Origin: an uncultured Ferrovum sp. | GTDB lineage: Bacteria; Pseudomonadota; Gammaproteobacteria; Burkholderiales; Ferrovaceae | Assembly: GCA_903909215.1 (NCBI GenBank) | Contig: CAIVUX010000050.1 | Span: forward strand, 1-49,919 | DNA length: 49,919 nucleotides | Direction of reading: 5' to 3' | Shown: positions 15,557 through 33,881 of the stretch, one piece after another | How the letters are laid out: each line of letters begins with the position of its first letter | How positions within the stretch are numbered: the stretch's first letter is position 1 | Notes under the pieces: generated by a model | Told to the model about the DNA's origin: nothing | Databases searched by the model: none | Seen by the model: only the letters and a program-made list of their open reading frames with translations | Position numbers and translations under genes: made by a program

Positions 15557-16666
15557 ATGATCTTCAGCCGCAGTCTACGCAAGGAATTCAGCCAAACCGC
15601 CCTGATGGCGTTGACGGTGCTGGTGGCTATTTTGCTCACCGTTACCGTGGTGAAGCTGTTGGGCTTAGCCGCAGGGGGCGCGCTGTCCGCAGACGCCGTG
15701 GCCGCCATGGTGGCTTTTGGCGTGCTGACCTACTTGCCGGTAATCTTATCGGCCTCGGTGTTTGCCGCGGTGCTCATGACCCTAAGCCGTTGTTATCGCG
15801 ACTCGGAAATGATTATTTGGATGAGTTCGGGGGTCAGCCTGACGCGCTTTATGGGGCCCGTGTTGGCCTTTGCCGTCCCCATGGCCTTGGTGGTGGGGCT
15901 GATGAGCGTGGTGGTATCGCCCTGGGCCATTGGCAAGAAGGCCGAGTATCAAACGCGTTTAGACAGTCGGGACGAGACCGCGCAGATTACCCCGGGCGTG
16001 TTTCGCGAATCCAAACAATCGGACCAAGTGTTCTTTGTGGATTCCATTAGCGAAAGCAAAGATAAGGTCTCTAACGTATTCGTGCAGTCCGTGCAGGACA
16101 ATAAATTGGGCGTGATTGCGGCCAATAAAGGGTTTGTGACCACGCACCCCAATGGGGATCGCTTCGTGGTGCTGCAGCAGGGGCGCCGCTATGAAGGCAA
16201 GGCCGGCACTACCCAATACAATTTAGTGGATTTTGATCAAGCAGAATTGCGTGTGGAGCAGCGCGGGGCCAGCTTAAGTGCCTTATCGGTGAAATCCATG
16301 AATGTGGGGCAATTGATTGCCAAACCCACCTTGGATGGTTGGGGGGAGATGCATTGGCGCTTGGGGTTACCCATTAGTTTGATGGTGTTGGCGGTGTTCG
16401 CCATTCCCTTGTCGTACGTCAACACGCGCGGCGGGCGGTCTTCTAACATGATTTTCGCGCTCTTGGCCTACATGGTGTACTACAACACCATGAGCATTTT
16501 TCAGGCCTGGGTGGTGCAGGGCCGCATATCCCCTTGGGTGGGGATTTGGCCCTTACATGCGCTTTTTTTCCTCTTGGCGCTGATGATGTTGTTGCGACGG
16601 CAGTGGGTTTGGTCCGTGCGCAACCTATTCAATGCTATAATTCAGCCCCTTCGGAGAGGTGGATGA
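15557..16666 (+). CDS. lptF: LPS export ABC transporter permease LptF
   Basis: LptF is one of two permease subunits of the LptB2FG transporter that extracts lipopolysaccharide from the inner membrane. The 369-residue product has the YjgP/YjgQ layout. Membrane helices occupy the first third, then a periplasmic beta-rich domain (around residues 130-260), then three helices. The ATG at 15557 starts MIFSRSLRKEF, typical of the family. Divergence from pepA is the conserved gamma/beta arrangement. lptG, which normally follows directly, is absent here. Instead the last 14 bases of the gene overlap the 5' end of tRNA-Ser. Confidence 0.95.
   Translation: MIFSRSLRKEFSQTALMALTVLVAILLTVTVVKLLGLAAGGALSADAVAAMVAFGVLTYLPVILSASVFAAVLMTLSRCYRDSEMIIWMSSGVSLTRFMGPVLAFAVPMALVVGLMSVVVSPWAIGKKAEYQTRLDSRDETAQITPGVFRESKQSDQVFFVDSISESKDKVSNVFVQSVQDNKLGVIAANKGFVTTHPNGDRFVVLQQGRRYEGKAGTTQYNLVDFDQAELRVEQRGASLSALSVKSMNVGQLIAKPTLDGWGEMHWRLGLPISLMVLAVFAIPLSYVNTRGGRSSNMIFALLAYMVYYNTMSIFQAWVVQGRISPWVGIWPLHALFFLLALMMLLRRQWVWSVRNLFNAIIQPLRRGG
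16636..16641 (+). promoter_or_regulatory. Candidate -10 box for tRNA-Ser
   Basis: A consensus TATAAT lies 11 bases before the tRNA-Ser 5' end, inside the lptF coding sequence. It is followed by a GC-rich stretch of the kind found at stable-RNA promoters. No good -35 box is visible at the expected spacing, so this is tentative. Confidence 0.4.
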
Positions 16667-16743
16667 GCGGTTTAAGTCGCACGCCTGGAAAGCGTGTTTA
16701 GGTGAATAACCTAACGCGGGTTCGAATCCCGCCCTCTCCGCCA
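16653..16743 (+). tRNA. tRNA-Ser (GGA anticodon)
   Basis: The gene folds as a class II tRNA with a long variable arm. The acceptor GGAGAGG (16653-16659) pairs with CCTCTCC (16733-16739), and the discriminator is G. The anticodon stem CACGC/GCGTG encloses CTGGAAA, giving anticodon GGA, which reads UCC and UCU serine codons. The T arm contains GCGGGTTCGAATCCCGC. CCA is encoded at 16741-16743. The 5' end overlaps the lptF stop codon. A terminator follows 40 bp downstream. Confidence 0.97.
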
Positions 16744-16783
16744 TAAGTACTTGAATACAAAGAGAATTTCATAAAACCCCGCC

Positions 16784-16810
16784 AAGCCCCACAGGCTGCG
16801 GGGCTTTTTT
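16784..16810 (+). terminator. Rho-independent terminator after tRNA-Ser
   Basis: The stem AAGCCCC (16784-16790) and GGGGCTT (16800-16806) enclose a nine-base loop and run into a T-tract (16805-16810). Confidence 0.85.
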
Positions 16811-16937
16811 ATGGCGCATTCTCTGCGGTAGGTTATGAGCCGTTTTTCAACGCCATTTCCAAAGTATTCTCAGTGGGCATTTAAAACGGTAGGTTGTGCC
16901 GTATCGACACGACACCAATACAGAGCGGTTTGCTACT

Positions 16938-17126
16938 TTAGAGTTGCGGAAAACCCAGCAGCTTGCGTTGTTCGTTCCAGTCGATGGGCAGAGGCAGATT
17001 GAGTTTGAGTGTTTCTGAGGTGAATTCTGCAGGATGGGTTCCATCCAGGATGGTTCTGATGATGTCTGGGGCAAGGCAGATCCGATAGATCATGCGGGTG
17101 ACGTGGGTATTGGAGATGCCTTCCTT
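16938..17126 (-). pseudogene. C-terminal remnant of a large serine recombinase
   Basis: Read on the minus strand, this stretch encodes about 62 residues ending in a TAA at 16938. They match the C-terminal end of recombinase-family proteins as I know it: an EGIS helix-turn-helix-like entry, CLAPDIIRTILDGTHPAE, then LPLPIDWNEQRKLLGFPQL just before the stop. The resolvase catalytic domain and everything before EGIS are missing. The frame ends abruptly at about 17126, where sequence from a fadE gene begins on the other strand. I infer a deletion scar left by a decayed integrated element next to tRNA-Ser. The 127 bp between the terminator and this fragment hold nothing I recognise beyond two copies of CGGTAGGTT (near 16827 and 16888). 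Confidence 0.7.
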
Positions 17127-17831
17127 GCTGATGTGTCCATGCTGGTACTCGGTGGAGACCTGAAGCGCCGTGAAAAACTATCCGCGCGTTTGGGGGACAT
17201 TCTCTCGCAAATGTATCTGGCCTCGGCAATCTTGAAGCGCTACCAGGATGAAGGACGGCAGCAGGCCGACGCACCGCTGCTCCATTGGGGCGTCTGGAAT
17301 GCGATGGCTCAGGCACAAGAGGCGTTTGACGGGCTTTTGGCCAACTACCCCAGCAAGGGGGTGGGCCGCTTCTTGTATAGGATTATTTTTCCCTTTGGTC
17401 ACCCCTATGTGGTGCCCTCCGATGAAATGGGGCGTCAAGTGGCGAAACTATTGATTGCACCATCGGCCACTCGTGATCGTCTTACGGAAGGTTGTTACAT
17501 TCCGCCCACCGCCGATGAGCCGGTGGGCGCCTTAGAACTGGCGCTTATTGCCACCATTGCTGCCGAGCCTATAGACGTCAAGGTGCGTGAGGCCGAGAAG
17601 CGCGAACTGTTTGCCGATAACCCATTGGCCAATGTGCGCGATATGGCTCATGCCGCCTGGCAACAGGGTGTGGTTAATGCCGAGGAATATGCCCTGCTGC
17701 AGAAACGGGATGAATTGCGTGACAAGGTGGTGCACGTGGATGATTTTCCATTTGACTATGATGTGAACACTGCGGCCCAGCGTCATGTAAGCGCAACCCA
17801 TACGGCTGCTCGTGAGGCGGCAGGCAATTAA
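17127..17831 (+). pseudogene. C-terminal fragment of FadE-type acyl-CoA dehydrogenase (DUF1974)
   Basis: FadE carries out the first oxidation step of fatty-acid beta-oxidation. Only its C-terminal domain (about 234 residues, from ADVSMLVLGGDLKRREKLS to the end) is present. It includes the recognisable SQMYLASAILKRYQDEGR, APLLHWGVWNAMAQ and HVDDFPFDYD stretches. A full enzyme is about 800 residues, so the FAD- and substrate-binding two-thirds are missing. An open frame extends upstream to an ATG at 17034. Those first 31 codons are antisense to the recombinase remnant and are not FadE-like. No ribosome site supports that start. The fragment sits 50 bp before the FadN-type gene, so the ancestral order was probably fadE-fadN-fadA. 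A small stand-alone DUF1974 protein is possible but unlikely to be catalytic. Confidence 0.8.
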
Positions 17832-17881
17832 CCTTGCGATGAAATTTTCTGGCAACAGTCAATATTAATGGGGGATGGGCA

Positions 17882-20263
17882 GTGAAAAGATTGATCGTAA
17901 AAAAAGCAGCCGTGCTTGGTGCCGGCACCATGGGGGCCCAAATTGCCGCCCATTTGGCCAACGCCAATGTGGAAGTGCTTCTGTTTGACTTGCCAGCCCA
18001 TGAGGCAGACAAAAGCGGCATTGTTATGAAAGCGTTGAGCGCTCTTAAAAAGCAGGAACCCGCACCTTTGGCAAGCCCCGATAACCTGCAACTCATTGAG
18101 GCCGCTAATTACGAGGAGCATCTGCCGCGCCTGGGTGAATGCGATCTGGTGATTGAAGCCATTGCCGAACGTATGGATTGGAAAAAAGAACTGTACACAA
18201 AGGTTGTGCCACACCTGGCCCGCCATGCGCTGATTGCTTCCAATACCTCTGGTCTATCAATCAACGAACTTGCAAAAATCCTGCCCTTGGATGTGCAACG
18301 GCGTTTTTGTGGCATCCATTTTTTTAATCCCCCGCGTTACATGCACTTGGTGGAACTTATTGCCACCCATTACGGTGACCCAGGCTTACTGGATCACCTA
18401 GAAACCTGGCTTACTTCACGTCTGGGTAAGGGGGTGATACGTGCCTTGGATACTCCTAATTTTGTCGCCAATCGAATCGGCGTTTTTTCCATACTGGCCG
18501 TAATCCATCACACCGCCCGACTGGGCCTTGGCTTTGATGAGGTGGATGCGTTGACGGGAGTAAGGGTTGGCCGCCCCAAGAGCGCCACCTATCGCACGGC
18601 CGACATGGTGGGGTTGGACGTTATGGCGCATGTGATAAAAACCATGCACGACACCTTGCCCCATGACCCCTGGCACAGCTACTTTGTTGCGGCGCCATGG
18701 CTGGCGGCGCTGATTGGGAAGGGCGCGCTGGGCCAAAAAACCAAGGCAGGCCTTTTCAAAAAAGTGGGTAAGGAAATTCTGGTGCTCGATCTTGCCCAGC
18801 AAGATTATCGCCCTGCCGGGGCCGAGGTGGACCCTGAGGTGGACGCCATCTTGAAACTCAAAAACCCCGCAGAAAAATTCATCGCGTTGCGCAATTCTGC
18901 GCATCCGCAAGCCCAGTTGCTATGGTCCAGTTACCGTGACTTATTTCACTACTGCGCGGTGCAGCTGGAGCATATGGCCGACAATGCCCGCGACATTGAC
19001 CTTGCCATGCGGTGGGGTTTTGGTTGGAGCTTGGGCCCCTTTGAAACCTGGCAAGTGGCGGGCTGGAAAAACATTACCCAAGCCATTGCCGAGGACATTG
19101 CCACAGGTCGGGCCATGAGCAGCACCCCATTGCCCCACTGGGTGTTTGAATGCGAAGGAGTGCACGCTCCACAGGGGTCATGGTCCGCAAGCGCCAAAAC
19201 CCTGCGCCCGCGTTCCGCCTTGCCGGTTTATCAACGGCAACTTTTTCCGGAAACGGTACTGGGCGAAGCCAAAGCAGATCGGGGTACCACGGTGTGGGAG
19301 AACGAGGGTGTTCGGCTTTGGACCCATGCTGCTGATTCTGGTATTGGCATTCTCTCCTTCAAAAGCAAAATGCACACCGTGGGCGATGAAGTACTGGACG
19401 GCCTTCTGGCGGCCATTGCCTTGGCCGAACAGCAGTTGGAGGGTATGGTGTTGTGGCATGAAGCACCCTTTGCCGTGGGCGCCAATTTGCAACAGGTGTC
19501 CCAAGCCTGTGCTATGGGGGCCTTCGATAAACTTGAGGCTACGGTGGAGAAATTTCAACGCACCTCTCAGGCGCTTAAATATGCCCAGATACCCACGGTT
19601 GCGGCGGTACAGGGTATGGCTTTGGGAGGCGGCTGCGAGTTTGTGATGCATGTCAGTGGACGTGTTCTGGCGCTGGAAAGTTACATTGGATTGGTGGAAG
19701 CCGGCGTGGGCCTGATTCCCGCCGGGGGCGGATGCAAAGAATTTGCCATTGCTGCCGCCCAACAAGCGGCGCGCACAGAAACGCCGGGGGAGGTGTTTCA
19801 TTTTCTGCAACCACCCTTCATGGCCATCGCTTTGGCGAAGGTGTCGAAGGGCGCCTTTGAGGCTGTGCGCGCAGGCTTTGCCAAACCCACTGACACCATT
19901 TTGTTTAACCACCACGAACTGCTTTATGTGGCACTTAAGGAGACGCGCGCCCTGGCTGAAGCGGGATATGTTCCACGGCTTAAGGCGCGTCAGATAACTG
20001 TGGCGGGACGCAACGGCATGGCTAACTTCGAGATGATGCTGATTAACATGAGAGAAGGCGGCATGATTTCCGCCCACGACTACCGCGTTGCCAAATCTGC
20101 CGCTACGGCCCTCTGCGGCGGTGATGTGGATACGGGAAGTAAGGTGGATGAAGAATGGCTTCTTACGGTGGAGCGCCGCGAGTTTATGCAGTTGTTAAAA
20201 ACCCCAGAAACCCAGGCACGTATTCAGCATATGCTGGAAACCGGCAAGCCTTTGCGCAACTAA
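17882..20263 (+). CDS. 3-hydroxyacyl-CoA dehydrogenase/enoyl-CoA hydratase, FadN type
   Basis: This bifunctional enzyme hydrates enoyl-CoA and oxidises 3-hydroxyacyl-CoA with NAD in beta-oxidation. The 793-residue product has the dehydrogenase first: a Rossmann GAGTMG at residues 13-18, and HFFNPPRYMHLVELI further on. The crotonase domain follows, with its oxyanion-hole region VQGMALGGGCEF near 576-587 and GLVEAGVGLIPAGGG after it. This order is the reverse of E. coli FadB and matches Bacillus FadN and many betaproteobacterial homologues. The start is a GTG at 17882 with a G-rich ribosome site upstream. The thiolase gene follows 34 bp later, forming an operon that originally also held fadE. 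Confidence 0.93.
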   Translation: MKRLIVKKAAVLGAGTMGAQIAAHLANANVEVLLFDLPAHEADKSGIVMKALSALKKQEPAPLASPDNLQLIEAANYEEHLPRLGECDLVIEAIAERMDWKKELYTKVVPHLARHALIASNTSGLSINELAKILPLDVQRRFCGIHFFNPPRYMHLVELIATHYGDPGLLDHLETWLTSRLGKGVIRALDTPNFVANRIGVFSILAVIHHTARLGLGFDEVDALTGVRVGRPKSATYRTADMVGLDVMAHVIKTMHDTLPHDPWHSYFVAAPWLAALIGKGALGQKTKAGLFKKVGKEILVLDLAQQDYRPAGAEVDPEVDAILKLKNPAEKFIALRNSAHPQAQLLWSSYRDLFHYCAVQLEHMADNARDIDLAMRWGFGWSLGPFETWQVAGWKNITQAIAEDIATGRAMSSTPLPHWVFECEGVHAPQGSWSASAKTLRPRSALPVYQRQLFPETVLGEAKADRGTTVWENEGVRLWTHAADSGIGILSFKSKMHTVGDEVLDGLLAAIALAEQQLEGMVLWHEAPFAVGANLQQVSQACAMGAFDKLEATVEKFQRTSQALKYAQIPTVAAVQGMALGGGCEFVMHVSGRVLALESYIGLVEAGVGLIPAGGGCKEFAIAAAQQAARTETPGEVFHFLQPPFMAIALAKVSKGAFEAVRAGFAKPTDTILFNHHELLYVALKETRALAEAGYVPRLKARQITVAGRNGMANFEMMLINMREGGMISAHDYRVAKSAATALCGGDVDTGSKVDEEWLLTVERREFMQLLKTPETQARIQHMLETGKPLRN

Positions 20264-20297: not shown

Positions 20298-21497
20298 ATG
20301 AGCAAATACATTCAAGATGCTTATATCGTTTCCGCAACGCGCTTGGCCACTGCCAAGCGCAATGGCCATTACGCCACCACTCGCCCCGATGACCTGCTGG
20401 CCGCCGTCTTACGGGCCGCGCTGGCAGGCCAGCCCACCCTTGATCCGGCGTTGATTGAAGATGTGATTGTGGGTTGCGCTATGCCAGAAGGCGAGCAAGG
20501 ATTAAACGTGGCTCGTATTGGCCTTTTGTTGGCGGGTTTGCCAGACAGCGTGCCTGGCATCACCATTAACCGATTCTGCGCCTCTGGCTTGCAGGCCGTG
20601 GCGGATGCGGCCGCGAAAATACGCTTGGGCGACGCGGATGTGATGATCGCCGCGGGTGTGGAATCCATGAGCGCCATGCCACAAATGATGGGCAATAAGC
20701 CGTCCGTCAATTTGGCCGTCTTTGAACATCAGCAGACCATCGGTATTGCCTATGGCATGGGCCTGACAGCAGAGATCGTGGCGCAACGGTGGAAAGTTTC
20801 TCGCGCCGATCAAGACGCCTTCGCGCTGGCATCCCACCAAAAAGCCGTAGCGGCTGTGACCGCTGGCCATTTTAATGCCGAAATCACGCCATTTTTGCTG
20901 CGCACCCATGTGCCCGATTTGCGCAGTGGTGCGGTGCGGGTGGTGGAATGTCTGGTGAGTCAGGACGAAGGCCCTCGTCCGCAAACCACCTTGGAAACGC
21001 TAGCGAAACTGCGACCCGTTTTCGCCGCGCAGGGTTCGGTTACTGCCGGAAACAGTTCGCAAATGTCCGATGGCGCCGCAGCCGTTGTAGTGGTTTCGGA
21101 AAAAATATTAAAACACTTTAACCTAACGCCCTTGGCGCGTTTTATGGGTTTCGCTGTGACCGGGGTGGCGCCGGAGATTATGGGGGTGGGCCCCATTGCC
21201 GCTATCCCTAAGGCGCTGCAACGCGCGGGCATCACCCAGAATCAGTTGGATTGGATCGAGCTCAATGAAGCTTTTGCCGCCCAGTCGCTGGCGGTGATCC
21301 GCGATTTGCAATTGGACGCAGCAAAAATTAACCCACTGGGGGGCGCCATTGCTCTGGGGCACCCCCTTGGCGCCACAGGTGCCATACGCACCGCAACCTT
21401 GCTGCATGGGCTGAAGCGCACCGGCGGGAAATATGGCCTGGTGAGCATGTGCATCGGGACCGGCATGGGCGCTGCCGGGGTGTTTGAGGTGTTGTGA
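20298..21497 (+). CDS. fadA: Acetyl-CoA C-acyltransferase (3-ketoacyl-CoA thiolase)
   Basis: The thiolase cleaves 3-ketoacyl-CoA to acetyl-CoA and a shortened acyl-CoA, the last step of beta-oxidation. The 399-residue product has the acylated cysteine in NRFCASGLQ (Cys94). The catalytic histidine lies in GGAIALGHPLGATGA and the second cysteine in CIGTGMGAAG. All are intact and the length is normal. It lies 34 bp after the FadN-type gene with AAGGA upstream of the ATG and is the last gene of the unit. The 153 bp that follow, up to ompW, contain no recognisable gene. They hold an imperfect GC-rich inverted repeat around 21593-21611 without a T-run. Confidence 0.95.
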   Translation: MSKYIQDAYIVSATRLATAKRNGHYATTRPDDLLAAVLRAALAGQPTLDPALIEDVIVGCAMPEGEQGLNVARIGLLLAGLPDSVPGITINRFCASGLQAVADAAAKIRLGDADVMIAAGVESMSAMPQMMGNKPSVNLAVFEHQQTIGIAYGMGLTAEIVAQRWKVSRADQDAFALASHQKAVAAVTAGHFNAEITPFLLRTHVPDLRSGAVRVVECLVSQDEGPRPQTTLETLAKLRPVFAAQGSVTAGNSSQMSDGAAAVVVVSEKILKHFNLTPLARFMGFAVTGVAPEIMGVGPIAAIPKALQRAGITQNQLDWIELNEAFAAQSLAVIRDLQLDAAKINPLGGAIALGHPLGATGAIRTATLLHGLKRTGGKYGLVSMCIGTGMGAAGVFEVL

Positions 21498-21650: not shown

Positions 21651-22368
21651 ATGAACCTTCGAAGAGTGGCTGCTGTTTTACTGGCTGGAGTTTCATTGCT
21701 TTCAGCATCAGCTTGGGCTTTGAAGGCGGGTGATAACACCGTGGCTATTGGCGCCGCTTATGTCAATCCCAATGTCAGTGCCGACGCGTTGAACTACAGT
21801 GGGAATTCTATCTACTCAGTGCCATCAGGCTCTGTGCCGATCACTTCCGCATCGGCCTCCAGTACCACCACAGGCGCACTCATTCTGGGGCATATGTTTA
21901 CGGATAATATCGCCTTGGTGTTAGACGTCGGCTTCCCACCAAAAGTTAATTTATCCATGGCGTTGAACGGAGGCGCTTCCACCGAACTGGCCTCAGTGAA
22001 GCTATGGGCCCCCATGTTGGTGGGCCGCTATTATTTTATGGATGCTAAAGATGCGTTTCGGCCCTACATAGGCGCGGGCGCTGTGTATACCGCCTTTAAC
22101 AGCCTGTCCTTAAATGCCGTTGGGCAGCACTTGGCTCCTGCGGGGGCCGGCATTGATTCGGCTTGGGGTTTGGGTGGCCAGTCTGGGGGCCAACTACGAC
22201 CTCAACAGCAATTATTTTCTCACCGGGTCGCTCAGTTACACCTACACCAAGACCACGCTGCATATCAATACGTTGAATTTGGGTTTACCCGTAACCGTAG
22301 GTTCTGCATCTGCCGATCTAAAACTGGGTAACACCTTGGTCTTTTTTGGTGCAGGTTACCGTTTTTAA
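21651..22368 (+). pseudogene. ompW: OmpW-family outer-membrane protein, frameshifted
   Basis: OmpW proteins are eight-stranded outer-membrane beta-barrels. The first frame starts at 21651 with a signal peptide (ending ASAWA near residue 23). It reads through KAGDNTVAIGAAYVNPN, VLDVGFPPK and YRPYIGAG-like strands (FRPYIGAG) to GIDSAWGLG. From about 22170-22200 the homology continues in the +1 frame (ASLGANYDLNSNYFLTGSLS) and ends in the barrel-closing FFGAGYRF at 22368. The original frame instead runs to a stop at 22331 with no family similarity and lacks a C-terminal aromatic. One extra base in the G-rich stretch TTGGGGTTTGGGTGG would explain this. It may be a real inactivating mutation or a sequencing or assembly error. 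Confidence 0.82.
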
Positions 22369-22393
22369 CCCAAAACCATTCTAGGCGCATGCC

Positions 22394-32372: not shown

Positions 32373-32540
32373 CAGTTAGATTTAATCCAGTATTCTAACG
32401 CTGCGTTGCGTCAAAATGCACGGACTTTTTGGAAACTTCCAGACAGGATGGGGTCAGAAATTTTACAAGTACTTGATATTGTTATGTATTTTAGATAGGT
32501 GCAGGCGGGGGTTTTAATCGAGTTTCTGTTTTTTGAGTAG

Positions 32541-32558: not shown

Positions 32559-33881
32559 CTATTGCACGGGGTTGAGTTGATCGGTTAACTTCTGAAGCGC
32601 ATCCGGCGCACCACGTACGCGCAAGAACGAGCCCTCCACATCGCTGCGCTCTTCCAATACCTCGCAGCTGGAAAATATCTCACCGCGCAGTTTCTGCGCT
32701 GCCCACGGCAAAAAGAGCTCGGCTTCAATTAAATCTTTCCTGAAGTAGGCCACGATGGTCTTATGGAGTAAGGCCACATCGTCAATCCGTTTGGCGCTCA
32801 TCACGATGCAATCGGGGTAGCGGGACACCAGCATTGCGGTGCGGTTCGCCTGGGCGGCTTCATCGCCCACATGATCAATCTTGTTAAAAATACGGATGCG
32901 CGACACGCTCTGCGCACCAATTTCACTGAGTACTTCATCGGTTACTTGAACTTGGCGCTCAAAACCGGGATCGCTGGCATCGATCACGTGCAACAATAAT
33001 TCTGCATCCAGTGCTTCATCTAAGGTGGATTTAAAGGAGGCCACCAAGCCATGGGGCAGGTTTTTAATAAAACCCACGGTGTCGCTAATCAAGACGCGCG
33101 GCACGCTTTCCGGATGCAAGGTGCGCACGGTGGTGTCCAATGTGGCGAAGAGTTTGTTTTCTACCAATACGTCACTGCCCGTTAAGGCGCGCATTAAAGT
33201 AGATTTACCCGCATTGGTGTAGCCCACCAGCGCCACACTGGCCAAGCCTTGGCGCTCTTGACGGCGCGAGCGCTGTGTTTTGCGCTCCACATCCATGGCG
33301 GCAATTTCTTGTTGCAGTTCTGCAATATGGTCACGAATTTTGCGTTTATCTAATTCGGTGTGCGATTCACCGGCGCCGCGCCCCCCCACACCGCTGCGCT
33401 GACGACCCTGAGGGCCTGCCAGTTTTGCCATTTCACGCAAGCGTGGTGCCATGTAGCTGAGCCGCGCAATCTCCACCTGCGCTCTTGCCGCACGGGAGCG
33501 GGCATTGCGGTGGAAGATGTTCAAAATGACCATGGTGCGGTCCATCACTTCGCAACCCACCTCGTTTTCTAAGATGCGCGCTTGAGAGGGTGATATTTCA
33601 TGGTCCACTAACACTGCTTCAATAAGGCCGGTAACGGAGTCTTCTGCCGCCGATCCATTTACAAAGTCTCTAATCTCTTCACGCTTGCCTAACCCCAAAT
33701 AGGCGGAAGCATCAAAGGCGTTGCGCTTTTGAATGAAGGTTTGCACCACTTGGTAACCCAAGGTTTTGGCCAGATCGCGCAGTTCTGCTAAGGACGCTTC
33801 AAACTCGAGGTCGGTGATGTTGGGCAGCTGCACAGCAGCCACCACGGCGTAGCGGATTTTGTCGAGGGGCTCGATGGACAT
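32559..33881 (-). CDS. hflX: Ribosome-associated GTPase HflX
   Basis: HflX is a ribosome-binding GTPase that splits stalled or stress-arrested 70S ribosomes. The 440-residue product has the N-terminal HflX domain (around DLAKTLGYQVVQTF and YLGLGKREEI). A helical linker (SGVGGRGAGESHTELDKRKI) follows, then the G domain with P-loop GYTNAGKST near 219-227, DTVGFIKNLP and the NKIDHV specificity motif. It lies four bases after yjdM, suggesting one unit. hfq and the hflKC genes that often accompany hflX are not here. Confidence 0.95.
   Translation of the reverse strand: MSIEPLDKIRYAVVAAVQLPNITDLEFEASLAELRDLAKTLGYQVVQTFIQKRNAFDASAYLGLGKREEIRDFVNGSAAEDSVTGLIEAVLVDHEISPSQARILENEVGCEVMDRTMVILNIFHRNARSRAARAQVEIARLSYMAPRLREMAKLAGPQGRQRSGVGGRGAGESHTELDKRKIRDHIAELQQEIAAMDVERKTQRSRRQERQGLASVALVGYTNAGKSTLMRALTGSDVLVENKLFATLDTTVRTLHPESVPRVLISDTVGFIKNLPHGLVASFKSTLDEALDAELLLHVIDASDPGFERQVQVTDEVLSEIGAQSVSRIRIFNKIDHVGDEAAQANRTAMLVSRYPDCIVMSAKRIDDVALLHKTIVAYFRKDLIEAELFLPWAAQKLRGEIFSSCEVLEERSDVEGSFLRVRGAPDALQKLTDQLNPVQ

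Follow-up and report, generated by a model that had tools for sequence, protein, structure and literature searches.

Directly 3' of a tRNA-Ser(GGA) gene in an uncultured Ferrovum sp., the end of a serine-recombinase gene system on the minus strand abuts the 3' part of fadE on the plus strand, and we consider this arrangement to be probably a non-functional scar left by a single deletion between an element at the tRNA gene and fadE. The whole stretch of DNA that was analyzed, 49,919 nucleotides long, is referred to here as the window, and the features that matter to the argument are the following:

16653 to 16743, plus strand: tRNA-Ser (GGA), called by ARAGORN; left border of the variable site
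16938 to 17132, minus strand: C-terminal (HTH-like) module of a serine-recombinase system, 5' truncated with its stop codon kept, placed by phrog_14161, tblastn and alignment
17034 to 17831, plus strand: chimaeric open frame of 265 aa, a misannotation hazard
17118 to 17132, no strand assigned: junction zone of 12-15 bp, microhomology-like, read as recombinase on one strand and as FadE on the other
17118 to 17831, plus strand: 3' part of fadE (ACDH_C / DUF1974; PF09317), about 237 codons, 70% identical to the FadE of locus L071
17882 to 20263, plus strand: fadB-type 3-hydroxyacyl-CoA dehydrogenase/enoyl-CoA hydratase, open over its whole length
20298 to 21497, plus strand: fadA-type acetyl-CoA C-acyltransferase, open over its whole length

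The fadE remnant and its missing part

The plus-strand fragment matches PF09317 (ACDH_C) from 17118 onwards over profile positions 78-284 of 284 (E 3.4e-76; 250-257 bits against a Pfam cut-off of 25), which bears out the C-terminal end of fadE that the initial annotation had placed here, with about 237 codons where it had counted 234. The 70% identity is to residues 569-791 of the L071 protein, a FadE of 799 aa from a Rhodocyclaceae record, and the counterpart of residues 1-568 is absent both at the locus and from the rest of the assembly. When the 799-aa protein was searched against the genome, the only other match was a weak one (E 0.01) to the C28 paralogue, an acyl-CoA dehydrogenase that is also the sole PF00441 match in the genome; neither the lost half nor a second fadE, which the initial annotation had suggested looking for, was found there. 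The NCBIfam FadE models give 196-218 bits, against cut-offs of 600-1300.

A fragment that is open to its stop codon over about 237 codons could conceivably be a working stand-alone ACDH_C protein, and its best identity of 70% is near the 72% of fadB in the same locus, L071. In many other loci, however, FadE identity is lower than that of fadB (64% vs 72% in L059, for example), the fragment is without the catalytic acyl-CoA dehydrogenase part, and a scan of the plus strand over 16600-18000 detected nothing promoter-like. Across 61 genomes there are 27 ACDH_C matches, 25 of them in frames of at least 614 aa and the other two in the window's own frame and in a 98-aa frame in G036, so that the conserved short gene with DUF1974 only, which had been named as the case against a truncation, does not occur among them. 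We regard a working protein as very improbable. ACDH_C was detected in 8 of 31 same-family relatives, most of the family being without FadE.

The recombinase tail

On the minus strand, a frame with its stop codon at 16938-16940 is open for 79 codons, and residues 18-76 of it match phrog_14161, described as 'recombinase' (E 3.5e-10); a 62-codon version of the tail gives E 3e-10, and the module is encoded at 16941-17132. Pfam and NCBIfam returned no match to the tail. In 60 relatives, tblastn found it at 14 places (E<1e-3). The strongest match (46% identity, E 5.1e-12) falls at the end of a long frame in G026, and the portion of that frame present in L029 has Resolvase and Recombinase domains. 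The tail also aligns with rows from 12 relatives, one of which (L054) is out of frame. Matches to phages (best E 3e-4) and to plasmids (best E 2e-7) are weak; no close relatives of the tail were confirmed among viral contigs, and no similar DNA was found in plasmids. The search with the translated tail that the initial annotation had called for thus returned a real similarity to recombinases.

The Resolvase catalytic domain (PF00239) is absent from the tail and from the whole genome, in a search whose control was positive in 10 of 14 genomes, and the Recombinase domain (PF07508), present in the intact relatives tested, has no Pfam match in the tail. Since both catalytic domains are gone, nothing is left here that could recombine DNA.

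The junction and the chimaeric frame

The two remnants meet without a gap. In a FadE alignment of 44 rows (the window plus 43, two of them duplicates), the window residues AFLADVSM, from 17118 on, match the FadE consensus and the preceding run does not, while the recombinase-like reading of the minus strand ends near 17132; the remnants therefore overlap by 12-15 bp, and the abutment proposed earlier at about 17126 falls inside this overlap. An overlap at the protein level is no proof of microhomology in the DNA, and the fadE relatives picked up by a pattern search differ at three or more of the 15 junction bases, so microhomology is only suggested. The junction was seen in one genome, all 60 relatives searched being from other genera, and viral contigs held no exact match to 36 bases across it.

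The short overlap, together with the fragmentation of the genome into 51 contigs, might also be taken to indicate an assembly chimaera, in which the ends of two unrelated contigs, having a short word in common, were fused there. In that case the other gene halves would be expected elsewhere in an assembly listed as 99.85% complete, but neither was found, and the site is variable in relatives anyway; we think such an artifact improbable.

The misleading 265-residue frame foreseen by the initial annotation is present (17034-17831), its first 28 codons running antisense to the recombinase tail. It might be annotated as an acyl-CoA dehydrogenase in spite of lacking the catalytic part, and annotators should be warned accordingly.

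Genomic context of tRNA-Ser(GGA)

Matches to lptF were found in 30 relatives, and 17 lptF neighborhoods were fetched. In 13 of these 17 loci tRNA-Ser(GGA) lies just 3' of lptF, and all 13 keep homologues of pepA, holC, and valS on the far side of lptF; the four gene names agree with Pfam. The 3' side of the tRNA gene, compared by tblastx between 13 downstream stretches and the window, differs between relatives. The window has a distal block and several short pieces in common with G018, an hflX-like GTPase gene with G006 and an exonuclease-domain gene with G010; short pieces are also shared within two same-genus pairs, and there is otherwise no sharing, a count that is limited since 5 of the 13 stretches are under 600 bases long because their contigs end.

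Island-type genes lie 3' of tRNA-Ser in all three relatives checked by Pfam. Among the ten proteins from these three stretches are a methylase-restriction fusion, DUF5131, an ISL3 transposase, HipA, an AAA protein, a subtilase, and Fic; one further protein has matches below cut-off only and two have none. The fusion, DUF5131, the transposase, HipA, and Fic come from loci L202, L204, and L206 (in G007, G003, and G002, respectively). We therefore regard the DNA 3' of tRNA-Ser(GGA) as variable and island-like in the bacterial family of Ferrovum, the labels 'island' and 'att' for tRNA-adjacent features denoting familiar kinds. Intact elements, which the initial annotation had suggested looking for at the tRNA-Ser locus of relatives, did not turn up: no matching element was found, and no serine recombinase lies beside tRNA-Ser in the 17 fetched lptF loci or in the G018 extension. 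Within the window there is no repeat of the tRNA end of at least 12 exact bases, and hence no direct repeat of the tRNA 3' end of that length at a far border, as would be looked for in an integrated element.

The 10-bp word AAGTACTTGA has exactly two copies in the window, one at 16745-16754, 1 bp after tRNA-Ser, and one at 32467-32476, 15.7 kb away and just before an hflX-like gene; in shuffles, 0.03 copies are expected on average. Because the word was spotted by eye, after the fact, it is a candidate border only, and the pair may possibly delimit a 15.7-kb insert as island borders or may be due to chance.

The gene at 32559-33881 is a second hflX-like GTPase gene by Pfam, with close relatives in few of 32 genomes (G006, G008, G009, G033, G036, and G043); a more distant hflX-like gene is present in nearly all of the 32. 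We had considered the hflX-like gene after tRNA-Ser in G006 as proof of an empty site and dropped it, because a second copy in G006 is closer (80% vs 71% identity) and the distribution of the gene is patchy. Between tRNA-Ser and the recombinase stop, the word CGGTAGGTT occurs at 16826-16834 and 16887-16895, 61 bp apart; these are its only copies in the window, and two or more copies arose in 2 of 100 shuffles.

fadB, fadA, and beta-oxidation

The FadB protein is up to 72% identical, over 793 residues, to Rhodocyclales record proteins, and its best NCBIfam models are FadB types, all of which score under their cut-offs; FadA matches PRK09052 above cut-off (E 4.7e-206) as well as Thiolase_N/C. 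Compared with the family of Ferrovum, the window FadB is 59-64% identical to that of the g6 genomes and mostly 45-55% to the fadB products of other members. In the trees, both FadB and FadA branch with Rhodocyclales/Achromobacter sequences and apart from the g6 sequences of the family itself (support 0.997 for the FadB clade and 0.125 for its innermost clade; 0.964 for FadA). We had taken fadB as a possible mark of a vertically inherited operon, and these identities and trees make that unlikely.

The foreign placement of FadB and FadA raises another history for the junction, namely that a foreign piece starting inside fadE and carrying fadB, fadA, and perhaps more arrived already truncated and came to lie against a recombinase gene or remnant, a complete fadE never having been present here. 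In keeping with this, the only fadB found in genera g7 and g8 is the one that is roughly 50% identical. The best identities of the fadE remnant, FadB and FadA are nevertheless similar (70%, 72%, and 75%), and a whole fadE may therefore have come along with them; moreover, the remnant clusters with five Accumulibacter loci (support 0.811), and sequences that include those of family members G005, G011, and G017 come next (0.873). We consider a truncated arrival unlikely, if less so than an assembly artifact, and it is against this history that the single deletion put forward by the initial annotation becomes less certain, its geometry and the absence of the missing parts still speaking for it.

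The spacing of the genes adds a complication. Of 87 fadB loci, 40 also hold fadE, which lies 1,569-9,495 bp upstream in 37 and downstream in 3; in none of the 40 does fadE stand 50 bp before fadB. The gap in the window is therefore unusual, and more than one rearrangement may have happened.

As for metabolism, the initial annotation had proposed that the first enzyme of the beta-oxidation operon was removed. The truncation of fadE is plain, but the genome retains a 598-aa acyl-CoA dehydrogenase with N-terminal, middle, C-terminal, and PF12806 domains, which 18 of the 19 same-family relatives searched also have (one of them as a 153-residue piece only), and there is a second fadB in the genome as well. 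Because these remain, beta-oxidation is not clearly lost; the scar is no demonstration of a loss of fatty-acid oxidation, and its metabolic meaning is smaller than was first proposed.

Farther along, an OmpW-family gene at 21651-22371 follows one frame to about codon 173 and then another (22114-22368), a frameshift that is either real or from the assembly; the similarity to relatives in G006 and G018 covers residues 1-173.

Proposed history of the locus

A single deletion fits the geometry because each gene is without the part that faces the other, and neither part occurs elsewhere in the assembly. We infer that the variable site 3' of tRNA-Ser(GGA) would once have been occupied by an element with a serine-recombinase gene set, oriented so that the recombinase tail faced the tRNA. 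A single illegitimate deletion, perhaps between short sequences alike at both ends, would then have taken out the DNA between a point within the recombinase tail gene and about codon 569 of fadE, and what it would have left over corresponds to the present arrangement, 62-64 tail codons head to head with about 237 fadE codons, with fadB and fadA behind.

Comparison with known systems

The initial annotation had assigned the tail to a large serine recombinase. Its recombinase character stands, as the match to phrog_14161 indicates, but 'large' is less certain: 13 of the 14 tail matches in relatives lie in frames of at most 172 aa (one of them with two stops) and the remaining one in a long frame of 651 aa, so the tail, judged from these sequence matches, may derive from a small partner gene instead. 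In some relatives such a short gene does follow a large recombinase gene. In 5 of the 13 loci read (L031, L032, L034, L052, and L054) a 4-bp overlap links the short frame to a large recombinase-like one; by Pfam, the large frame has Resolvase and Recombinase domains in L031 and L034, and the large frames of L032, L052, and L054 are called recombinase by resemblance. Beside the short frame of some other loci, such as L030 and L036, no large recombinase was seen. The small partner in L032 has a weak, below-cut-off match to a SopB-type HTH model, and two other partners are without a match.

Mobile elements offer both forms. In phage AcaML1, genes named as 'large' and 'small subunit' overlap by 4 bp, and plasmid pSU2 has a gene row of DUF2924, recombinase, and small gene, whereas plasmid pWH01K carries the fused form as a single 598-aa protein. 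The window's tail matches the end of this module in sequence (phrog_14161, AcaML1, pSU2, and pWH01K) and stops at about the same place, but unlike the serine recombinases of proteobacterial phages, plasmids, and islands it is without the catalytic Resolvase and Recombinase domains, and the 62-64 codons left fit the fused and the split form alike and cannot tell them apart. We judge the chances to be evenly balanced that the tail is the relic of a two-gene serine recombinase with a separate small, HTH-like C-terminal protein, whose island was maybe the 15.7 kb between the AAGTACTTGA copies; if so, the scar would record the loss of such a two-part system. Among the papers listed, neither titles nor the beginnings of abstracts dealt with split recombinases of this kind.

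Compared with intact FadE (PF09317; PRK09463, PRK13026, NF038187), the window keeps the C-terminal third only and is without residues 1-568. Decayed genomic islands at tRNA genes likewise have a recombinase remnant directly behind the tRNA and variable genes in relatives. The window differs from them in that the tRNA end was not found repeated, the one candidate border repeat is 10 bp long, and no intact copy could be found. The scar looks like ordinary genome decay.
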